A stretch of DNA of 64,000 nt, from NCBI GenBank assembly GCA_006384855.1, contig VCJN01001268.1, forward strand, positions 1 through 64,000, in the 5' to 3' direction. Positions 17,511 through 59,844 of this stretch are shown here, piece by piece. Source of the DNA: Tetraselmis striata. Lineage: Eukaryota > Chlorophyta > Chlorodendrophyceae > Chlorodendrales > Chlorodendraceae. A program made the translations under genes and the position numbers. The notes beneath the pieces are model-generated. The model made no database searches and was not told where the DNA came from. It saw nothing but the letters and a program-made list of their open reading frames with translations. Within the stretch, counting starts at the first letter, position 1. Each line of letters starts with the position of its first letter.

Positions 17511-18072
17511 TGCGGGTTCTGCGCGGTGCAGCCGAGGCGTGCGAGAGGCTACTGCTACGTCACTATTGGCACGGGTTTAACTGTGTGTAGCCTTTGCACA
17601 CGACAGTTTCACGCTGTGCTCGAGGTGGTAGCGGTCTCGAAGAGGGATGTGCAGGTGAGATGTGTGTGACCCGCAGGTGCTGTGGCATCACAGCCCAGCC
17701 TGCCGAAGTAGCGACCCGAGTCCAGTAGTAGCGCCAGCAGCATCGCGGAAACCCGCGCGGCGTCGTGGCAGCCGTTTCCGGCTCACAGTCCATTATGCGT
17801 GCAGGCGGATATCCCGCCGAATGCCCCACGAGTAGTAATCCATAGTAATCCGCGGTTATAAATAATGGTAATAATAATATATTCTTGTAAGGATTAAGGA
17901 TTTTATAATACAGGTACAATAGTGTGAATTGCAGACGAAAGAGACAGCACTAGTAAAAACAGCAATGAGTCCACCGCTTTTTAAAATAAAAGCACCTACT
18001 ACCGCGGTACGGGTACCGGTACTAGCTACAGCTGGAAGTGTGTCTACATGTACTACATATTTACAACGACAT
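17511..18072. other. KEA 5' flank up to the copia insertion, no gene seen
   Basis: The stretch becomes AT-rich toward 17860-18070 and ends in gacat, the left target duplication of the copia element. It presumably contains the KEA promoter; no specific site was identified. Confidence 0.4.
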
Positions 18073-18553
18073 TGTCGGAGGGGATTGTCGAAGCGATGGC
18101 TGAGTGGCACTGTCACTGATGGGGGGAGAGTCGGCGAGAGTCGGCGTGCACGCGTCGAATCACGTCGAGTGCCAGCAAGCAAGGTGCGAGCTGGAAAGGC
18201 AAAGGGCTGCTATGAGCCGTGGGCGATGGACGATAGGTAGTCGCTGTCGCCGTGGTGATGGCTGAGTGGCACTGTCACGAGAGAGAAAGGGTGAGTCGGA
18301 ATATTTCTGGAAAAGCAGTTGACTGAATTACAAGGAGCCGAGGCTGGCAATTTTTACCAGCCGACTAGGTGTCACTTAGAACGGACACCTCTCCGTCTAA
18401 GAAGGCCAACTGGCAAAGATGCCTAGGTGCCATGCTTTGGTGCCGTACTGCTGCCATAAGGTCCAAATTAGGCACAGGTACGGCAGCCAGAAAATGCGGA
18501 TTTCACAGAGAGAAAAAGCGGATTCAGGGTACCGGGGTACCCTGGGTCCAACA
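18073..18553 (-). repeat. 3' LTR of the copia element
   Basis: It is 481 bp and matches 24913-25393 base for base by eye, with TG...CA ends. The outer flank is gacat. Confidence 0.95.
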
Positions 18554-18570
18554 CCCCTCCTCATCCTGTG
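18554..18570 (-). other. Polypurine tract next to the 3' LTR
   Basis: On the sense strand the bases just before the 3' LTR read cacaggatgaggagggg. A purine run touching the LTR is the expected start site for plus-strand cDNA. It overlaps the end of the polyprotein ORF. Confidence 0.7.
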
Positions 18571-21500
18571 GAATCCCGCGGGCGCAAGACTGATGGCGGC
18601 AGAGGCGCAACACGGGGCTCCTCGGATGACCCCATCAGGAAAGCGCGGAAACGAAGAAAGGTAGTCAGCGGCAGCGCTTTAGTGAAGAAATCGGCGAGTT
18701 GGTCTGCGGTAGGCGTGTAGTGCATGTCGATGACGCCGTCTTGGCAGAGTTGGGCTGCATACTGAAACTTGAGGTCAATGTGGCGTTGCGCGCTTGTAAT
18801 CATACCATGTTTCACCTGAACGATGCATGCTTGATTGTCCTCGCATACCCGCACTGGGTCAGTGGTGGGGTGGTGGAGCTGGCGCAGAAGAACGCGAATA
18901 AATGCCAGACATTTGCATGCCATGCAGAGCGCCACGAACTCCGCCTCGGCAGTAGACAGGGCCACACTCTTCTGAACTTGCGCGCGGTAGGCGACTGGGG
19001 TGCCATGCACCAGGGCAAGATAGCCGGTAGTGGAGCGGCGTTTGGGCACGAAGGTTGCCCAGTCAGCGTCCACAAAAAAGAGGAAGTCAGGTGCCTCGTT
19101 GTCCAGTTGCTTCCGGAAAATGAGGCCATGGTTGGGGGTGCCCTTGAGGTAGCGCAGCACTGATACGGCGATCTGCCAGTGACGCTCGGTGGGGGACGCC
19201 ATGTAGGCGCACAGGCGGCCGACCACGAACGCAATGTCCGGGCGTGATGCCACAGCCAGCCAGATAAGGCTACCAACAAGATTGGGATAGGGAAAGAGTT
19301 TGGTGTCGAGGGGCGTGCCTGTAGGGTCATGAAAATCGGTATCCGGTGTGCAGGGTAGGCGGCGAGGCGCGCACGCCGCCATGTTGAAGGTAGTCAAGAT
19401 GTCGTTGATGTACTTCTCCTGATGGAGGTGGAGCACGCCTCCCGGCTTGCGATCAATGGCCATGCCAAGAAGCCAGGTGCATAGGCCGTCAGTAGTTGCA
19501 TCAAACGTAGAGAAGAGAGAAGTCTGAAAACGCTCCCGGATGTCGGACGACGGGGAGGCAGCCAGCATGATGTCATCGACGTAGACGCATAGGATGGCCA
19601 GCAGCGATTTATCGACTGCGAGCAGCGTCCATACGCCTGGATCGCACTCGGAGCTGACGAAGCCGAAGTCACGGAGAAAAGAAGAAAAGCGCAGAAACCA
19701 CGCCTTGGGTGCCTGCGGCAGGCCATAGAGTGCCTTAACGAGTTTCCAAGCCTGATCCTTGCGGCCGTAGCCGGGGGGGGGGTAGACGTAGACATCTTCA
19801 TCGAGGTTAGCGTTGAGGAAAGCACAGGTGACGTCGAACTGGTACGGCTCCCAGTCAAGTTGAACTGCGAGAGCAATAGTGGTGCGCAAGGCGATGAAGC
19901 TGACGACTGGGGCATAGGTCTTAGTGTCATCATAGTTCTCGCCGGCAGTAAGTTGATCGCCGCGGACAACCACTCTGGCCTTGCGCTTGATGAGGTTGCC
20001 ATCCTTGTCTTGTTTCTCCGCAAAGGCCCACGCCGTCTGTATGATGATTGCTGATGGGTTGTCGCGGCGAAGGTCAGGAATGCTGATCCAAACAAAGGTC
20101 TCCATCTTGGTGATAGAGGCGATCTCTCGGTCCATGGACTGTTTCCAGTCATCGGGGTGATTGCTGGAGATGGCCTCCTTGTAGTTGCGCGGCGCCTTGG
20201 ACACGCGGACAGTGGGTGCTGGCAGGGCGAGGGCGGCCATCTGCGCCGGGTAGGGGCGCACAACCTCCGCGATGGCGGATGCTACCAGCTTGGGGTGGTA
20301 GTCGCTAAGGTCGACATAAGGAGAAGATATGTGCGCTGATCCACTGGAGTGAGGAGTTGGCAGTGCTGTGGCGTCCCCCTCCTGATGACGCGGAAGATAC
20401 GTCCCTTCTGGCTGCGGAGGTGGGGGCCCCTCCTGCGCGGAGGCAAGCGCCGCTGACGGCGGCATGGGTGGCAGCATGGGAGGTGGCGCGTGGGGCCCCT
20501 CCTGCTGGTCCAAGGGTTGCGGCTCATCCATCAGGTGGTCATCGTCGGGGAGCTGGAAGACTGGCATAGAGAGTGCCGGTGTGCTGGAGAAGGGTCGTGT
20601 CACCTCATCAAAGATGACATCGCGTGTAACCGTTTCGCGCCTGGTAGCCGGGTTGTATATGCGGTAGCCGGCGGAGTCCTCATGGTGGCCAACGTAGATG
20701 CCCGGCCAGGATTTAGGTGTCATTTTTCCCTTGGCTGCCCGCATAGTCACAGGTATGTTGACCCAGGCCACACAGCCGAAAACATGCAGGTTGGCGAGGT
20801 CGGGCTTGCGACCGGTCATCAGCGTGTAAGGTATGGCATTGACGGACGAGCTCCACTGGCGGTTGCAGAGATAGACGGCGTGAAGATACGCCCAGTCCCA
20901 GAAGGTGCGGTCGAGGCCGGCGTGGAGAAGCATGGCTTGGGCACACTCACCGATAGTGCGGAAAGAGCGCTCCGCCAGGCCTGCCTGATGATGAGAGTGG
21001 GATGCGGTAAACTCCAGCGCGATGTTGAGGTCTGCACATGCTTGACGAAACGGAGAGCCGGTATAAACCGCGCTGCGATCGGCACGTATGCGTTGAACGG
21101 TGTGACCCATGCCGAGAACCGCCGCATGAAGTTGATGGACGGCGCGGACGGCCTCGTCCTTGGTGCGCATGGTGATTGCTACCTTTACTCCAGTGTAGGA
21201 ATCCACCGCGCCGAAAACATGCTGCGCGCCAGTGACCGACGGACAAGGTCCCTTCCAGTCGTCGATGACCACGAGCATGTATGGTGCCTCCGCGCGTGGG
21301 GAGGGCTGACGGTTGACTGACTGCTGGTGGGATTTGGCCTGAATGCACGCCGGGCATATGGCCTCCGGGGCAGATCCGAGTTTCGGGATGCCGATGGCAT
21401 GTTGTTGGGTGAGCTCCATGTGGCGCGCGCAGCGATGACCAAGTCGAAGATGCCACAGGGAGTAGGAGGCCGTTGGAGATGGCAGTGCCATGACCCCATG

Positions 21501-24500
21501 AGACGGATCCCGGATGGGAAGGAGCTTGATGCCGTACAGGCCTGTGGTGCCGGGGTAGGGCTGAAGGTGGATGACTGCGCCATCTGGGGTGATCATGCTG
21601 TTGAGGAGGCGGCTGAAGTAGAAAGAGTAGCCCTGCTTGCTGAGTTGATGGGTGCTGAGGAGGCGGCTGATGTTGGTGAGACCGACACTGGAGGTGATGT
21701 CAGGAGTATGGTAACAGTCTCGTGCCACAATGGTATGTGGCCTGCCTGTGATGTCTAGTGTTGGCGCCAGCGTGGTGCCGATGCCGACTGCCGGTTGCCC
21801 GAAACCGCCCACCAGAAATTGCTCTGCCGCAGGAATGTCCATGTAGTAGATGTAGTCGGTGCGGTGGGCATTGACGTGAGAGGATGCTCCCGAGTCGATG
21901 AGTACCCATGCTTCGCCATCGCTGGTGATGAGGGTGCCGTATGACGTGTGGCAGACAGTGATGACGGCTGGGGAAGGGGCGGCGCCCGAGACAGCCTTGA
22001 TGTAGTTGCGCATGACGTTGAGATCGATGACCCCGCCGAGAAGTTTGCGCAGTGTCGCCTCAGAAAGGTGAGATGTGGGCAGATCATCCAAGGTGAAGCC
22101 CATGGCGCGAGCGCGTAGAGCTGCAGGGGGCTCGCACCATCTGCCGTTGTCTGCCCAGGACCAGGGGCCATCATGTTCGTAGACCATGCCAGCGCCCGGC
22201 TGACCGTTGGTTTGCATGCGAAAAGCGTATGAGCCGGGGCGGGCGACGAACTTCGGAAAGTAGTCAGTTGTCACCACAGGAGTAAAGTGGGGGAATTCGG
22301 ATATACAGAGGTCCCACGCGCAGGGGCCGGGGTCGGTGAGCTCGATGGCGTTGATGTTGTTGATGTAGTCCTGAACGTCGGTTTGCGAAGCGATATTGGT
22401 CCACAGGAGGGTGTCGCGGTGAGCCGCCGAGCCGCAGGCGGTCGCACGCATGATGTTGCCGGTGCCAAGTGAGGAGAGTATCTCAGGGAAGTCCAGCGCG
22501 CCTGGAACATTCTCCACAATGTAGCGCACCGGTGTGGGCTGTGTAGTCAGGTAGAAACGGATGAAACTGATGACGGAAGCAAAGGCCCGAGAGCGATGGT
22601 CCTGCCAGCCAAGGCGTGAGCCAGCGCGCGACCATGGTTGACACGGTGGGCCTGACACGATGAGAGTGACCGGACGCAGGGTCTCCAGCTCCGCGATAGT
22701 GATGTTGTTGACGTCCATGGGGGTCCTGGCATGACAGTCCTGAAATGCTGAAGGGGGCAGACGGTCCGGGTACTTGTCGCTGATGACATGTAGGCGATGC
22801 GTCCACATAGTACGAGCCTCGGGCGACGGGTCGGCGCCGGTGATCTTGTGGATGGTGAAGCCGTATTCTACCAGAGCCTCTACTTCAGATGCTGATGGGC
22901 CATGGCAGGGCGAAAAGAGATGGTCGATGACCAGAGAGGTTGGCAGCGGGAGGATCGGCGCAGCGGTGAGGAGCGGTAGTGTTGGTGGCGGGTCGCCACG
23001 CAGGGCGCCTTGCTCCGCATGAAGAATGTGGGATGCCAACGCCGCCGAGGCGGGAAATGTGGGTGAAGTGAGGCATAGGGGTTGGGCTGGGGTGGGGACG
23101 GGGTGGGGACGTTGCCAATTGATGTCGAATAGGTGGATGGGGGGGTCGAGGGAGTAGGGATGGGAGTAAACGTTCCAGCGGGGGGGGGTGTTGGGGGCAT
23201 CGAAGATCGGGAAGGCGTCGGGGTGAGGGCGGGAGCGGTGAACATGCCATGAGTGTGAGAACGGGGACTCGAAGTCGGCATAAGAGTCGGAGTAGGGGAC
23301 GTGCCAGGGGTCATGTAAGTCATCCTCCGCGCTGTCCTCGCCCTCCCCCTCCTGTGCTCCGGTGTCTGCCCCTCCTGGGGCGGTAGTGTTGCAGGTGAGC
23401 ATGATAGGCAGGCTGCTGTGGTGTTGTGCTGATGGGGACACTCCCACGAACGGGTAGGCCTCCTGGTGTCCCGTCGGCCGCTGGGTGAAGGTGTCGCTGG
23501 CATGCTGATGACCCGGGTGCTGATGTCCAGCCGGGGAGACGAAGCCGACCGGCTGCTGATGACGCTGCATGCCGTCGTTGCTGCCCTGGTTTGTCCAACG
23601 CTGCTGCCGCTGGGGCCTGCCCTGATTGTTGCGGTTGTCGTTGTAGAAAGGCTGGCCTGGCGGCGCCTGATGGCGGTAGGTGTCGCGCGGGTGGTGGCCA
23701 TAGTTGGTGTTGACGCGACGCTCCGCAGGCGCGCGCTGATGGCGGTCATAGCGAGGGTTGGTCATGGTGCTGGTCGGCGTGGTGTCATCCAGGATACGCA
23801 AGCCATTGGCATGGCGCCTGGCCACACACTGCTGCTGGGTATGGCCCGGACGGTCACACCGTCTGCAGACAACGCTGGGCCCGGTGGTGTGCTGCGGGTC
23901 CCTGGGGCTGTAGGAATTTATGAGGTTTGGCGGGCACGCGCGGACGCGCTGCTGACGCTGACGCTTGCGCGCCTCCATGTTCTGTCCGGCGCTGATGATG
24001 GTCGCCAGCTTCTCGTTGACAGTGGCCGCCGAGGTGGTGGTGTCGACGATATGATCGTAGTCTGGGTGAAGGCCTGGGATGAGGTAGTTGGCAGCCACGT
24101 ACTCGAAGGTCCACTGGCCATGTGCCTTGTTCAGCAGATTCCAGAGGTTCTGGTAGCGACGAACATACACCTGAACCGGCTCATTCGGGAGCTGGCCCGC
24201 TGTGATCTCTTCCTCCAAGCGCTTACGCTCCTCCATGGCTGAGCCCTGGAGCTCAGTAAGGAGAGCCTTCCATGCGGTGTATCCACACTTCCTGGAATCC
24301 ATGCTGATGCTGTTGACGATGGCCAGTGCCATGGGATAATGGGCTGTTGCGTGGCGTAGGGCGGCCAGAAGGATCATTTGCTCCTGACGGGTGCCTTTGC
24401 CCTTGGTGGTGTCCAAGTAGCCAGCGCTGCCGAGAGCGATCTTGATGGCTTGAGCGTTGTCTCGTGTAGAGATGGCGTTGTCCCAGATGGGGACGTTCTT

Positions 24501-24719
24501 GAGGTCGAGTGTCGGCTTCACCGCAGCTGGCTTGATATGCTGGACGACCTCGGAGTCATCGTCTGACGCCCCGTCCATGCTGAAGGCGTCGTCAGAACTG
24601 GTATCATCACGGAAGTCAGGAGGTGGTGGGGCGTGGCCAGGGTCGGTCTTGATCGCACTCTGCCGAGCCAGATTGGCCAGGGGGGTGTTCATCATGCCGG
24701 TGTTGATGCTGGTAGACAT
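18561..24719 (-). CDS. Copia polyprotein: gag - C5 DNA methyltransferase - protease - integrase - RT - RNase H
   Basis: From the ATG at 24719 the protein has 2052 residues; the frame is open upstream to 25022 inside the LTR, but the downstream ATG is preferred. Domains in order: gag with a CX2CX4HX4C knuckle (about 285-298); a cytosine-C5 methyltransferase (about 590-905); aspartic protease with LIDSGASSH (Asp 942); an HHCC integrase zinc domain (about 1087-1130) and core ending HQAGLAERSFRT (Glu 1250); RT with LCVYVDDIML (1711-1720); RNase H with VDADWATF and STAEAEF, about 1875-2010. All catalytic motifs are present and no frameshift separates gag from pol, so protein ratios must be set by processing or another mechanism. 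The methyltransferase is the unusual part; a standard copia polyprotein is 1300-1500 residues. Confidence 0.95.
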   Translation of the reverse strand: MSTSINTGMMNTPLANLARQSAIKTDPGHAPPPPDFRDDTSSDDAFSMDGASDDDSEVVQHIKPAAVKPTLDLKNVPIWDNAISTRDNAQAIKIALGSAGYLDTTKGKGTRQEQMILLAALRHATAHYPMALAIVNSISMDSRKCGYTAWKALLTELQGSAMEERKRLEEEITAGQLPNEPVQVYVRRYQNLWNLLNKAHGQWTFEYVAANYLIPGLHPDYDHIVDTTTSAATVNEKLATIISAGQNMEARKRQRQQRVRACPPNLINSYSPRDPQHTTGPSVVCRRCDRPGHTQQQCVARRHANGLRILDDTTPTSTMTNPRYDRHQRAPAERRVNTNYGHHPRDTYRHQAPPGQPFYNDNRNNQGRPQRQQRWTNQGSNDGMQRHQQPVGFVSPAGHQHPGHQHASDTFTQRPTGHQEAYPFVGVSPSAQHHSSLPIMLTCNTTAPGGADTGAQEGEGEDSAEDDLHDPWHVPYSDSYADFESPFSHSWHVHRSRPHPDAFPIFDAPNTPPRWNVYSHPYSLDPPIHLFDINWQRPHPVPTPAQPLCLTSPTFPASAALASHILHAEQGALRGDPPPTLPLLTAAPILPLPTSLVIDHLFSPCHGPSASEVEALVEYGFTIHKITGADPSPEARTMWTHRLHVISDKYPDRLPPSAFQDCHARTPMDVNNITIAELETLRPVTLIVSGPPCQPWSRAGSRLGWQDHRSRAFASVISFIRFYLTTQPTPVRYIVENVPGALDFPEILSSLGTGNIMRATACGSAAHRDTLLWTNIASQTDVQDYINNINAIELTDPGPCAWDLCISEFPHFTPVVTTDYFPKFVARPGSYAFRMQTNGQPGAGMVYEHDGPWSWADNGRWCEPPAALRARAMGFTLDDLPTSHLSEATLRKLLGGVIDLNVMRNYIKAVSGAAPSPAVITVCHTSYGTLITSDGEAWVLIDSGASSHVNAHRTDYIYYMDIPAAEQFLVGGFGQPAVGIGTTLAPTLDITGRPHTIVARDCYHTPDITSSVGLTNISRLLSTHQLSKQGYSFYFSRLLNSMITPDGAVIHLQPYPGTTGLYGIKLLPIRDPSHGVMALPSPTASYSLWHLRLGHRCARHMELTQQHAIGIPKLGSAPEAICPACIQAKSHQQSVNRQPSPRAEAPYMLVVIDDWKGPCPSVTGAQHVFGAVDSYTGVKVAITMRTKDEAVRAVHQLHAAVLGMGHTVQRIRADRSAVYTGSPFRQACADLNIALEFTASHSHHQAGLAERSFRTIGECAQAMLLHAGLDRTFWDWAYLHAVYLCNRQWSSSVNAIPYTLMTGRKPDLANLHVFGCVAWVNIPVTMRAAKGKMTPKSWPGIYVGHHEDSAGYRIYNPATRRETVTRDVIFDEVTRPFSSTPALSMPVFQLPDDDHLMDEPQPLDQQEGPHAPPPMLPPMPPSAALASAQEGPPPPQPEGTYLPRHQEGDATALPTPHSSGSAHISSPYVDLSDYHPKLVASAIAEVVRPYPAQMAALALPAPTVRVSKAPRNYKEAISSNHPDDWKQSMDREIASITKMETFVWISIPDLRRDNPSAIIIQTAWAFAEKQDKDGNLIKRKARVVVRGDQLTAGENYDDTKTYAPVVSFIALRTTIALAVQLDWEPYQFDVTCAFLNANLDEDVYVYPPPGYGRKDQAWKLVKALYGLPQAPKAWFLRFSSFLRDFGFVSSECDPGVWTLLAVDKSLLAILCVYVDDIMLAASPSSDIRERFQTSLFSTFDATTDGLCTWLLGMAIDRKPGGVLHLHQEKYINDILTTFNMAACAPRRLPCTPDTDFHDPTGTPLDTKLFPYPNLVGSLIWLAVASRPDIAFVVGRLCAYMASPTERHWQIAVSVLRYLKGTPNHGLIFRKQLDNEAPDFLFFVDADWATFVPKRRSTTGYLALVHGTPVAYRAQVQKSVALSTAEAEFVALCMACKCLAFIRVLLRQLHHPTTDPVRVCEDNQACIVQVKHGMITSAQRHIDLKFQYAAQLCQDGVIDMHYTPTADQLADFFTKALPLTTFLRFRAFLMGSSEEPRVAPLPPSVLRPRDSTG
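21990..22960 (-). other. C5-cytosine DNA methyltransferase domain inside the copia polyprotein
   Basis: The domain lies between gag and protease, about residues 590-905 from the ATG at 24719. Motif order is that of C5-MTases: a motif I-like LVIDHLFSPCHG, motif II-like ITGADPSPEARTMW, motif IV VSGPPCQPWS with the catalytic Cys at 693 (22641-22643), motif VI IVENVPG (736-738), motif VIII-like SAAHRDTLLWTN, motif IX-like RARAMGFTLDDLP and motif X-like LLGGVIDLNVM. The SAAHR and motif X segments recall DNMT3-type enzymes, while PPCQPWS resembles bacterial and DNMT1/5-type enzymes; the subfamily is open. Motif I lacks the usual FxGxGG glycines, so cofactor binding needs testing. It is in frame and uninterrupted, so it would be made as part of the polyprotein. 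Confidence 0.88.
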
Positions 24720-24912
24720 TGCGAAGGGATGGCACACTTGTGCTTGAGGATGTATAACTGTAGGGGTGGGCGGGTGGGAAGAAAAAAAACTCGTCGCACG
24801 GCGCCGTCGACCGTCGAAAGTTGTCGAGGGTCGAGATACACGCAGGTTGAAGCCTCTGGCAGGCGTCGAGCACGGGGCAAGACGTCGAACCAAAGGAGAG
24901 GGCCCAAAAACC

Positions 24913-25393
24913 TGTCGGAGGGGATTGTCGAAGCGATGGCTGAGTGGCACTGTCACTGATGGGGGGAGAGTCGGCGAGAGTCGGCGTGCACGCGTCGAAT
25001 CACGTCGAGTGCCAGCAAGCAAGGTGCGAGCTGGAAAGGCAAAGGGCTGCTATGAGCCGTGGGCGATGGACGATAGGTAGTCGCTGTCGCCGTGGTGATG
25101 GCTGAGTGGCACTGTCACGAGAGAGAAAGGGTGAGTCGGAATATTTCTGGAAAAGCAGTTGACTGAATTACAAGGAGCCGAGGCTGGCAATTTTTACCAG
25201 CCGACTAGGTGTCACTTAGAACGGACACCTCTCCGTCTAAGAAGGCCAACTGGCAAAGATGCCTAGGTGCCATGCTTTGGTGCCGTACTGCTGCCATAAG
25301 GTCCAAATTAGGCACAGGTACGGCAGCCAGAAAATGCGGATTTCACAGAGAGAAAAAGCGGATTCAGGGTACCGGGGTACCCTGGGTCCAACA
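24913..25393 (-). repeat. 5' LTR of the copia element
   Basis: It is 481 bp with TG...CA ends and gacat directly outside. The sense strand just inside this LTR begins ggtttttgggcc and lacks the usual TGG of a primer-binding site complementary to a tRNA CCA end, so the primer is unknown. The long reading frame stays open into this LTR up to 25022. Confidence 0.95.
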
Positions 25394-25640
25394 GACATCA
25401 TCATATATTCATATTTACAACGTCATCAGCATATTTACAACTACAGCGCGCGCAGGAGGAGACATCAAGAATATTGTTTCAACACGAAAGCAGTTTCTAC
25501 CTTTTTTTTGCCCAGGAAATGAGAGCACCAGCGGACGATACACAGACGCAGGTATTGACGGTGCCAGTACCTTACACGGTACCTTAGACGATATCCGTTT
25601 CGTTCCGTAGCGACTGAATATTCAGGAATATTATTATCCG

Positions 25641-58338: not shown

Positions 58339-59844
58339 TCATGAAGGAGGCACTGGGAAGGCCACCGCTGCGGAGTCCTGTTGGACTTGGAAGTGGCGGA
58401 GGGGGGCGATGTGTCCAAAGAAGAACCACGCGCCAGGGGAAGGAAGAACGTTAGGGTCGATGTAGTCCAGAACGACGTCAGAGTTAGTGGCCCAACCGCC
58501 TTGGTAGCGAATGTGGGACAATGGCACTCCGATGGCGTTTGCTGCAGAAGCTGCGCCCTTGCGAAGACTGTGTGAAGTCCAGGAAGTGCCAGCAGGGGGG
58601 GCAGCGTTGACTAGACTGATGGTTGCAGACAGCCAGTCTGACATTGTAGCCGCAGTCCAAGGTTTTGACTGCTCGGCCGCAGTGACAGCCCAGAAGTTTG
58701 ATGTAGCCAAGCCAACAGTAACCAGGGGGACAGATTGGACGTTGTCGATGAAGTGGTGCAAGAGACGTGTCACTCGAGGGTGCTCGGACACCGGAAGGAG
58801 AAGTACACGCAGGTCGTCGGGTCCCCGTCGGCCAGCGCGACCCTTCTCGCGGTACACTTGCAGGGTGATGTTGTAGTCGTCGACATGCACGTCTCGCACT
58901 CGACAGGACACGCCAGTAAGGCCCCTGGCAAAGAACATAAAGTTGACAACCGAGGCCAGGAGGGCCCGGAAGTCGTGGTGGTACTCTGGGTAGGGAGCAG
59001 ACACAATCAGCTCGGCCTTTGTGACAAACCGGTAAGCCACATCCGCAGGCAGAGGGACACGCAAAGGGGCAGCGTCCAGTCGGCGTTGACGCAGCATCAG
59101 CCCACGCCTTGCTGAAGTTAGGTGTAGGCTGTCCTTGGCGATTGGGTCGAGGTTGTGCAGCTCGAAGAACGTGTTGATCGCAGACAGGTAAGGTTGCAGT
59201 GACTTAGCGGCGATGTGCCCTCGCTCGCCGATCCAGGCAACGTACCGAACGACAGTCGCAGTAGTCGCCTCCAGCGGGCTGATGTTCTCGGAGTCGTGGC
59301 AGAACTCCGCGAACTGAGACAGCCGGCCGGCATAGCTCTTGAGTGTCTGAGCGCTGAGGGAGCTGGAGAGTAGGTCGAGCGTCCGCTGGCCCAGCTCGTC
59401 TGAGCCGAACGCGTCCTGCAGACGAGCTCGCAATGAAGCAGCCCAGGGAGCGACAGCTTCGGGCTCGTCAATTACGTAAGTGCGTTGTCTTACTGACAGA
59501 GTTCCACCGGTACGACTACTGTTCGCAAAGTACTCGGCAGCAGCAGTTAGGTTCCCGGCGGTTGGCCGGTAGTTGCTGGACGGGTTTGCAGTAGCATCGG
59601 TACGGGTTTGCGGGGCTAGGTTCAGGTAAGAGGGCCGCCCCGCGCGCCCTTCGCGCTCGTAGCGCCTGTCTCGCGCGTAACGTACCCGCGTGAAACTTGG
59701 TCGTTGCGAACCAGTTGTAACACGTAGTGTAACAACCGACGGACGCAGTGGTGGAATGGTACGGGAGGCGGTTAGTTGAGCCGCCATGTGCAGGTGTGCG
59801 GATGGTTGAGCCGCACTCGGCTGTAGCTGTGAGAAGCGCCGCAC
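58339..59844 (-). CDS. Tyrosine recombinase (YR) of element copy 2
   Basis: The ORF has 501 codons. An N-terminal basic stretch is followed by a core-binding domain (about 135-240: LLSSSLSAQTLKSYAGRLSQ, YLSAINTFFELH) and a catalytic domain (about 270-490). The first Arg lies near LTGVSCRVRDV, the HxxR motif is SHSLRKGAAS, GGW replaces the usual GHS after IRYQ, and the nucleophile Tyr is in VLDYIDP. These residues are those used for cut-and-rejoin recombination. The start is uncertain: an acceptor-like cttcctttag just upstream and a GTGAGC donor at the end of the gag-like ORF suggest the two could be spliced together. Confidence 0.88.
   Translation of the reverse strand: MRRFSQLQPSAAQPSAHLHMAAQLTASRTIPPLRPSVVTLRVTTGSQRPSFTRVRYARDRRYEREGRAGRPSYLNLAPQTRTDATANPSSNYRPTAGNLTAAAEYFANSSRTGGTLSVRQRTYVIDEPEAVAPWAASLRARLQDAFGSDELGQRTLDLLSSSLSAQTLKSYAGRLSQFAEFCHDSENISPLEATTATVVRYVAWIGERGHIAAKSLQPYLSAINTFFELHNLDPIAKDSLHLTSARRGLMLRQRRLDAAPLRVPLPADVAYRFVTKAELIVSAPYPEYHHDFRALLASVVNFMFFARGLTGVSCRVRDVHVDDYNITLQVYREKGRAGRRGPDDLRVLLLPVSEHPRVTRLLHHFIDNVQSVPLVTVGLATSNFWAVTAAEQSKPWTAATMSDWLSATISLVNAAPPAGTSWTSHSLRKGAASAANAIGVPLSHIRYQGGWATNSDVVLDYIDPNVLPSPGAWFFFGHIAPLRHFQVQQDSAAVAFPVPPS

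Follow-up and report, generated by a model that had tools for sequence, protein, structure and literature searches.

A copia retrotransposon of the chlorophyte Tetraselmis striata with a predicted DNMT3-type cytosine-C5 methyltransferase between Gag and protease

The element and its methyltransferase domain

The first 64,000 nucleotides of contig VCJN01001268.1 of Tetraselmis striata (assembly GCA_006384855.1; this whole stretch is termed the window below) contain a complete long terminal repeat (LTR) retrotransposon at 18073-25393, encoded like all its features on the minus strand, whose polyprotein includes a DNMT3-like cytosine-C5 methyltransferase domain. The 5' LTR (24913..25393) and the 3' LTR (18073..18553) are each 481 bp long, end in TG...CA and show 0 mismatches to each other, and a perfect 5-bp target site duplication, GACAT on the plus strand, occupies 18068..18072 and 25394..25398. 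Such a perfect duplication is present in 11 of the 16 elements examined (the window element included), with an imperfect version in L024 and none in 4. A single uninterrupted gag-pol frame of 2153 residues (P0001, 18561..25022) spans the interior, with an ATG past the LTR at residue 102 (24719). These features uphold the preliminary description of the locus, in which a copia element with one intact frame and identical LTRs, hence a recent insertion, was recognized in what seemed a chlorophyte, as Tetraselmis (Chlorodendrophyceae) indeed is.

The Gag region (23868..24719), delimited by its position ahead of the zinc knuckle, is followed by the CCHC knuckle CRRCDRPGHTQQQC (residues 386-399, 23826..23867), a motif in the translation for which Pfam zf-CCHC_5 reaches only E 0.6, and then by the methyltransferase domain at residues 690-1012 (21987..22955). 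Downstream of it lie the aspartic protease region with LIDSGASS (21687..21902; assigned by this motif, with Pfam Pol_BBD at only E 0.17), a GAG-pre-integrase domain (21330..21521; Pfam 1.3e-7), the integrase core (20994..21287; Pfam rve 1.2e-6, its 29.2 bits being under the curated cut-off of 32.6), the SH3-like domain of copia Pol (20595..20816; Pfam 1.5e-22), a copia reverse transcriptase (RT) of the RVT_2 family with YVDD (19350..20045; Pfam 7.1e-44) and an RNase H region discerned by motifs in the translation only (18564..19322). The gag-protease-integrase-RT-RNase H order is the standard one of copia elements, and the integrase ahead of an RVT_2 RT, the TG...CA LTR ends and the 5-bp target duplication are likewise those of Ty1/copia. 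By sequence, a purine-rich tract, AGGATGAGGAGGGG in sense, adjoins the 3' LTR (18554..18567), and the leader starts with GGTTTTTGGGCCC, where no tRNA was matched as that of a primer binding site. Both flanks contain GTTGTAAATATG in the sense of the element (window 18043-18072 and 25394-25423), a possible repeat at the target.

The central domain recovers Pfam DNA_methylase with E 3.9e-9 (36.8 bits, cut-off 22), and it displays the motifs of the C5-methyltransferases in their usual numbering: motif IV PPCQPWS (residues 792-798, 22629..22649) with the catalytic cysteine at residue 794, motif VI ENV (residues 837-839, 22506..22514), motif VIII (residues 865-876, 22395..22430) and a motif X-like LLGGVIDLN (residues 994-1002, 22017..22043). 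The methyltransferase domain between knuckle and protease inferred in the preliminary description is recovered by profile search. Motif VIII is of the SAAHRxxxxWxN type that typifies the DNMT3 family (SAAHRDTLLWTN, to be compared with SAAHRARYFWGN), and the predicted fold of the domain is nearest to DNMT3. A search of P0001 against PDB sequences gave 0 matches, and no DNMT2 chain occurs among the 50 VIA matches listed, an absence which excludes nothing. Taken together with the tree described below, the domain is predicted to be a DNMT3-type cytosine-C5 methyltransferase, with catalytic activity as its predicted function.

Methyltransferase-bearing families and selection

While the preliminary description dealt with a single element, the domain is in fact present in several copia families, a Ty3-like family and a LINE (long interspersed nuclear element) family of the same genome. 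A search of 224.1 Mb in 2903 contigs with the methyltransferase gave at least 151 matches (best 150 of 409 candidates scored). Family sizes were obtained with a 178-residue query, for which the best 150 of 465 candidates were scored, and are lower bounds: family A, to which the window element belongs, occupies at least 39 places (86-100% identity over at least 176 residues), family B at least 22 (40-45% over at least 177) and C-type sequences, as defined by identity, at least 44 (58-75% over at least 174), 5 of which were read. Seven more family A loci of 9.9 kb (L021-L027) repeat the arrangement of gag, methyltransferase and pol domains seen in the window element, most of them being broken and L024 lacking a protease match. 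Family B shows the same domain order as A, and 5 of its 6 measured LTR pairs agree at 98-100%, the exception being L015 with 88%; L012 yielded no LTR pair. Family C (L016-L020) consists of derivatives some 4.8 kb long that retain gag and a truncated methyltransferase, read as one frame of about 1200 residues in L016, L017 and L019, and no protease or integrase match was found in any of the 5 loci read.

Beyond these, families D (methyltransferase read at 6 loci) and G (1 locus) have a copia protease motif after the methyltransferase, and a frame of the same length contains a downstream copia RT that is 63% (C663, family D) or 60% (C2193, family G) identical to that of the ENA protein P0010. 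Family F is LINE-type, with methyltransferase and RT in one 3505-residue frame at C2687. Part of the family K methyltransferase was read, at a single locus (L075; G000:C1950:3635-4009 and similar), while other copies of this abundant, Ty3-like family contain a Ty3-type RT match (30% identity to P0011) in the same 1771-residue frame, with the methyltransferase upstream. Family H is a copia family with 2147-residue frames, in which DNMT3A matches of E 0.17-0.56 lie upstream of the RT in the same frame, and it probably carries a methyltransferase too. Predicted DNMT3-like methyltransferases are hence present in at least four copia families (probably five), one Ty3-like family and one LINE family. 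The frames of copia family J, 1561 residues long, fill many rows of the RT match lists and gave no methyltransferase match among the matches listed for the methyltransferase queries, nor in the fully scored DNMT3A search.

Among proteins on record the closest is P0002 (jgi/Tetstr1), 99% identical over the methyltransferase region, in agreement with Tetraselmis striata, or a very close relative, as the host. All 46 proteins recovered with A2 as query likewise bear the name Tetstr1. Outside this genome, ENA holds the methyltransferase-bearing P0010 and P0061 (copia), P0062 (LINE-type) and P0011 (Ty3-like). P0011 is a polyprotein of 3595 residues that combines the methyltransferase with a PHD finger. 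P0062 (4319 residues) combines RT, RNase H and methyltransferase with a PCIF1_WW match (E 4.6e-20); PCIF1 is an RNA methyltransferase, and this element may therefore have two methyltransferase-related regions. In the window itself, two neighboring long frames on the minus strand are together suggestive of a DIRS/Ngaro-like element: that at 53722-57300 matches RVT_1 weakly (E 4.9e-4, under the cut-off), and that at 58339-59844 contains the N-terminal domain of a tyrosine recombinase (E 6e-8).

The ratio of nonsynonymous to synonymous substitution rates (dN/dS) of the methyltransferase, window copy against 22 A copies (7 with in-register stops), is 0.08-0.32, and the predicted enzyme is under purifying selection in this family, as had been supposed from the intact frame. 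Pooled over 6 diverged full loci, the values are 0.14 for protease-integrase, 0.23 for RT, 0.23 for RNase H, 0.28 for the methyltransferase, 0.29 for Gag, and 0.36 and 0.47 for the linkers. In family B the methyltransferase gives 0.23-0.38 in 7 of 10 comparisons and 0.60-1.02 in three close ones, each based on 5-9 nonsynonymous changes. The catalytic cysteine and the ENV glutamate are kept in all 28 other A copies read and the motif VIII arginine in 25 of them; all three are kept in 11 of 11 B copies, and the six D copies and the single G copy read all have PPCQPF and EN. By contrast, in family C the glutamate is replaced by glutamine in 5 of 5 loci and the cysteine by leucine in 3 of 5, the dN/dS of the domain over 10 pairs being 0.28, 0.60, 0.66, 0.77, 0.91 and, in five, 1.04-1.28; between A and C it is 0.50-0.59. 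Thus the putative enzyme is kept in the autonomous element and its predicted catalytic residues are lost in the dependent derivative, as expected of an enzyme supplied in trans or not needed, and the non-autonomous family C, bereft of the catalytic glutamate, is a natural control for the copia families in which selection has kept these residues.

Age of the capture

In the methyltransferase tree, constructed without DNMT1/5/6, ChloroDNMT and DRM rows, the copia sequences fall together (89/95; 86/95 with family K added) and comprise A+B (91/90) and D+G+P0010+P0061 (100/98), while the two LINE-type rows form a pair (98/99). The retrotransposon enzymes group with DNMT3 and not with DNMT2 or bacterial methyltransferases (100/99, 99/100), DNMT3 being represented by a single row on a long branch. 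A possible single clade of all retrotransposon methyltransferases without DNMT3A, imposed as a constraint, gave an approximately unbiased test value (p-AU) of 0.52. Identity between A and B is 39% in the methyltransferase and 40% in the RT, and the RT tree, which has no outgroup and leaves out the RTs of D and G, sets A+B (99/98) apart from J, H, P0010 and P0061. The common location of the domain, after gag and ahead of protease, and the agreement of the methyltransferase and RT trees favor one old entry into copia, and the capture within copia looks old and inherited from the ancestor of several families. Two separate entries are possible, since trees that place one or the other half of the copia sequences with the LINE rows were not rejected (p-AU 0.098 and 0.108), and family J might represent a loss of the domain or a lineage outside the methyltransferase-bearing group. 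A capture independent of those in dinoflagellates and Klebsormidium, as envisaged in the preliminary description, is conceivable; within copia it looks old, given the divergence of A and B and the ENA copia elements with the domain in the same position.

A recent, one-off capture or an assembly chimera, which the identical LTRs and the focus on one element in the first reading might have suggested, is rejected as exceedingly improbable, given the seven further A loci and the position of the domain, which several diverged families and the ENA copia elements have in common.

A viral origin was also considered and rejected: of the 4 IMG/VR loci matched, the 3 whose frames were listed (L030-L032) contain ordinary phage-type methyltransferases, and the 2 IMG/VR loci placed in the tree both lie outside the retrotransposon/DNMT3 clade. 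The same holds for 7 other methyltransferases of the genome over the Pfam cut-off (L053, L056, L058-L061, L064), a set that left out multi-exon candidates such as C726, C1756, C11 and C2009. The genome also contains a separate multi-copy C5-methyltransferase family (L053-L058, L060-L064) with open frames of 323-401 residues, typified by GPPCVGLS and by EQS in place of ENV, on contigs C1993, C776, C1647, C2337, C355, C1455, C2272, C1230 and C493 of G000; it lies outside the retrotransposon/DNMT3 clade (6 of 11 loci read: L053, L056, L058, L060, L061, L064).

Possible substrates and relation to known systems

DNA methylation is usually a weapon of the host against transposons. For a recently inserted copia element with a DNMT3-type domain under purifying selection between Gag and protease, we see about an even chance that the enzyme is turned to methylation of the element's own complementary DNA (cDNA), the likeliest of its possible roles. 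In terms of packaging, processing, substrate, timing and benefit, we infer the following course: the methyltransferase would be translated within Gag-Pol, enter the virus-like particle in that form and be freed by the element's protease; it might then methylate the double-stranded cDNA before or at integration, and the new copy would reach the nucleus already marked.

Several observations weigh against this proposal. Motif I of family A is divergent (LFSPCHGPS, with no clear FxGxG), and the Pfam match begins only at profile position 45; the other families have LCAGAT (D), LCSGAT (G) and LCAGIG (F) here. Motif IV departs from the usual form in family B (GPCCEPWS) and in P0061 (PDCHPFS). A 7-row sequence profile ranked DNMT3 first among solved C5-methyltransferases, whereas in one of 9 rows, with D, G and F added, HaeIII, DNMT2 and HhaI outrank DNMT3A; the order depends on the rows used, so that profile ranking alone was rejected as proof, and it is the fold, motif VIII and the tree that speak for a relation to DNMT3. 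Elements of family C with a dead methyltransferase still show 98-100% identity between their LTRs in 4 of the 5 read (90% in L018), and their gag is partly relaxed as well (dN/dS 0.46-1.12 in 6 pairs), so that relaxation is not special to the methyltransferase. Family J, seemingly without the domain and with many RT rows, suggests that not every copia element here needs the enzyme. Traces of CpG decay are weak and mixed as support for methylation, and the excess is small. In LTR pairs, CpG transitions amount to 17/239 against 26/736 elsewhere in A (4 pairs; 2.0x, p 0.028), 7/182 against 24/664 in B (5 pairs; 1.06x) and 5/230 against 16/815 in C (4 pairs; 1.1x). Comparisons of copies, which have no neutral control and to which coding constraint can contribute, gave 477/6313 against 774/18165 for six A copies and the window copy (1.77x pooled, 1.10-2.05 by copy) and 1.27x for one B pair. 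Finally, the gypsy DNMT3 of Klebsormidium and a LINE DNMT produced no methylation in a yeast test that its authors regard as inconclusive (PMC5890265).

Alternatively, the enzyme might target the host, methylating chromatin near insertions or genome-wide and shaping the host epigenome, for instance favoring integration or blunting silencing. The many copies across several families would fit such a role, as would the apparent lack of an ordinary host DNMT3, which could leave the elements as the cell's source of DNMT3-type activity; however, the CpG observed/expected ratio, 0.89 within the element and 0.97 across the remainder of the window, indicates no strong decay, and we regard this alternative as unlikely. 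A purely structural role in Gag-Pol, without catalysis, appears improbable: it could draw on the divergent motif I of family A and on the recent mobility suggested for C copies with a dead, shortened domain, but the cysteine and glutamate persist throughout the A and B copies read, PPCQPF and EN do so in D and G, and it is these catalytic residues that the shortened domain of C has lost. About as improbable, in our view, is that the enzyme acts like DNMT2 on RNA, be it that of the element or the tRNA primer. PPCQPWS/PPCQPF does resemble the PPCQPF of DNMT2, the DNMT2-type chain 6fdf came second in the 9-row profile search, and RNA is raised as a substrate for LINE-borne DNMTs by de Mendoza et al. 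(PMC5890265); but motif VIII and the best-matching fold both point to DNMT3, and a clade of retrotransposon methyltransferases with DNMT2 was rejected (p-AU 0.031).

As for the host, no ordinary DNMT3 was detected when the genome was searched with human DNMT3A and all 109 candidates were scored, a search in which introns could hide a diverged gene and part of the weak matches were read; the best match had E 0.0018 and the top rows belonged to retroelement family K. Hoguin et al. (PMC9998398) identify no DNMT3 in any MMETSP green alga; among Tetraselmis, they report DNMT5a from T. astigmata and DNMT6 from three members of the genus. Three classes of transposons in one alga thus carry DNMT3-like enzymes with no host DNMT3 detected, and if the cells make new methylation at all, transposons are a candidate source. 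Tentatively, and with less confidence than we place in cDNA methylation, DNMT3-type methylation capacity might belong to the retrotransposons rather than to the host, as a trade in self-marking enzymes shared among unrelated classes; were this true, the host may rely on de novo methylation supplied by its parasites, or be shaped by it.

These elements are reminiscent of other transposons with methyltransferases. Human DNMT3A and DNMT3B have SPCNDLS as motif IV, whereas the window domain, 20% identical to the catalytic domain of DNMT3A, has PPCQPWS and lies inside a retrotransposon polyprotein. In PMC12477816, an Ectocarpus study, N4mC/6mA-type methyltransferases are described from algal DNA transposons, and an antiviral role is suggested for such domains in a 2019 opinion (PMC6338049). 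A copia element with a C5-methyltransferase from Tetraselmis or another chlorophyte was not found among the open-licence PMC papers listed. One sentence of PMC12344493 names 'LTR Copia and DIRS' as DNMT3 carriers, crediting the 2018 paper of de Mendoza et al., which described gypsy, DIRS and LINE elements; the text available gives no element anatomy, and 'Tetraselmis' is absent from its main text.

The known carriers in de Mendoza et al. 2018 (PMC5890265), to which the following statements refer, are DIRS, LINE and gypsy elements, and they share with the elements described here an in-frame domain, many copies and purifying selection. SymbioDIRS-Dnmt3 and SymbioLINE-Dnmt of Symbiodinium are many-copy retrotransposons of other classes in another host, and the DNMT3 of SymbioDIRS was shown to cause de novo CG methylation in yeast; family F and P0062 are LINE-type like SymbioLINE, a likeness drawn by class alone. 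Copia elements are abundant in Symbiodinium without any DNMT domain, whereas the window copia has one. A close parallel is KnitGypsy-Dnmt3 of Klebsormidium nitens, in which a DNMT3-related domain likewise forms an intronless part of an LTR Pol polyprotein in an alga of the green lineage, under purifying selection (Ka/Ks < 0.2 there). It has, however, gypsy domains and DIRS-like repeats, and its streptophyte host has a multi-exon DNMT3 as well, whereas the Tetraselmis element, compared by description, is a copia with ordinary LTRs and the domain between gag and protease, in a chlorophyte with no host DNMT3 detected. Methyltransferase-bearing retrotransposons are already known, and a copia with the domain in the gag-protease position in a chlorophyte is a variant of them.

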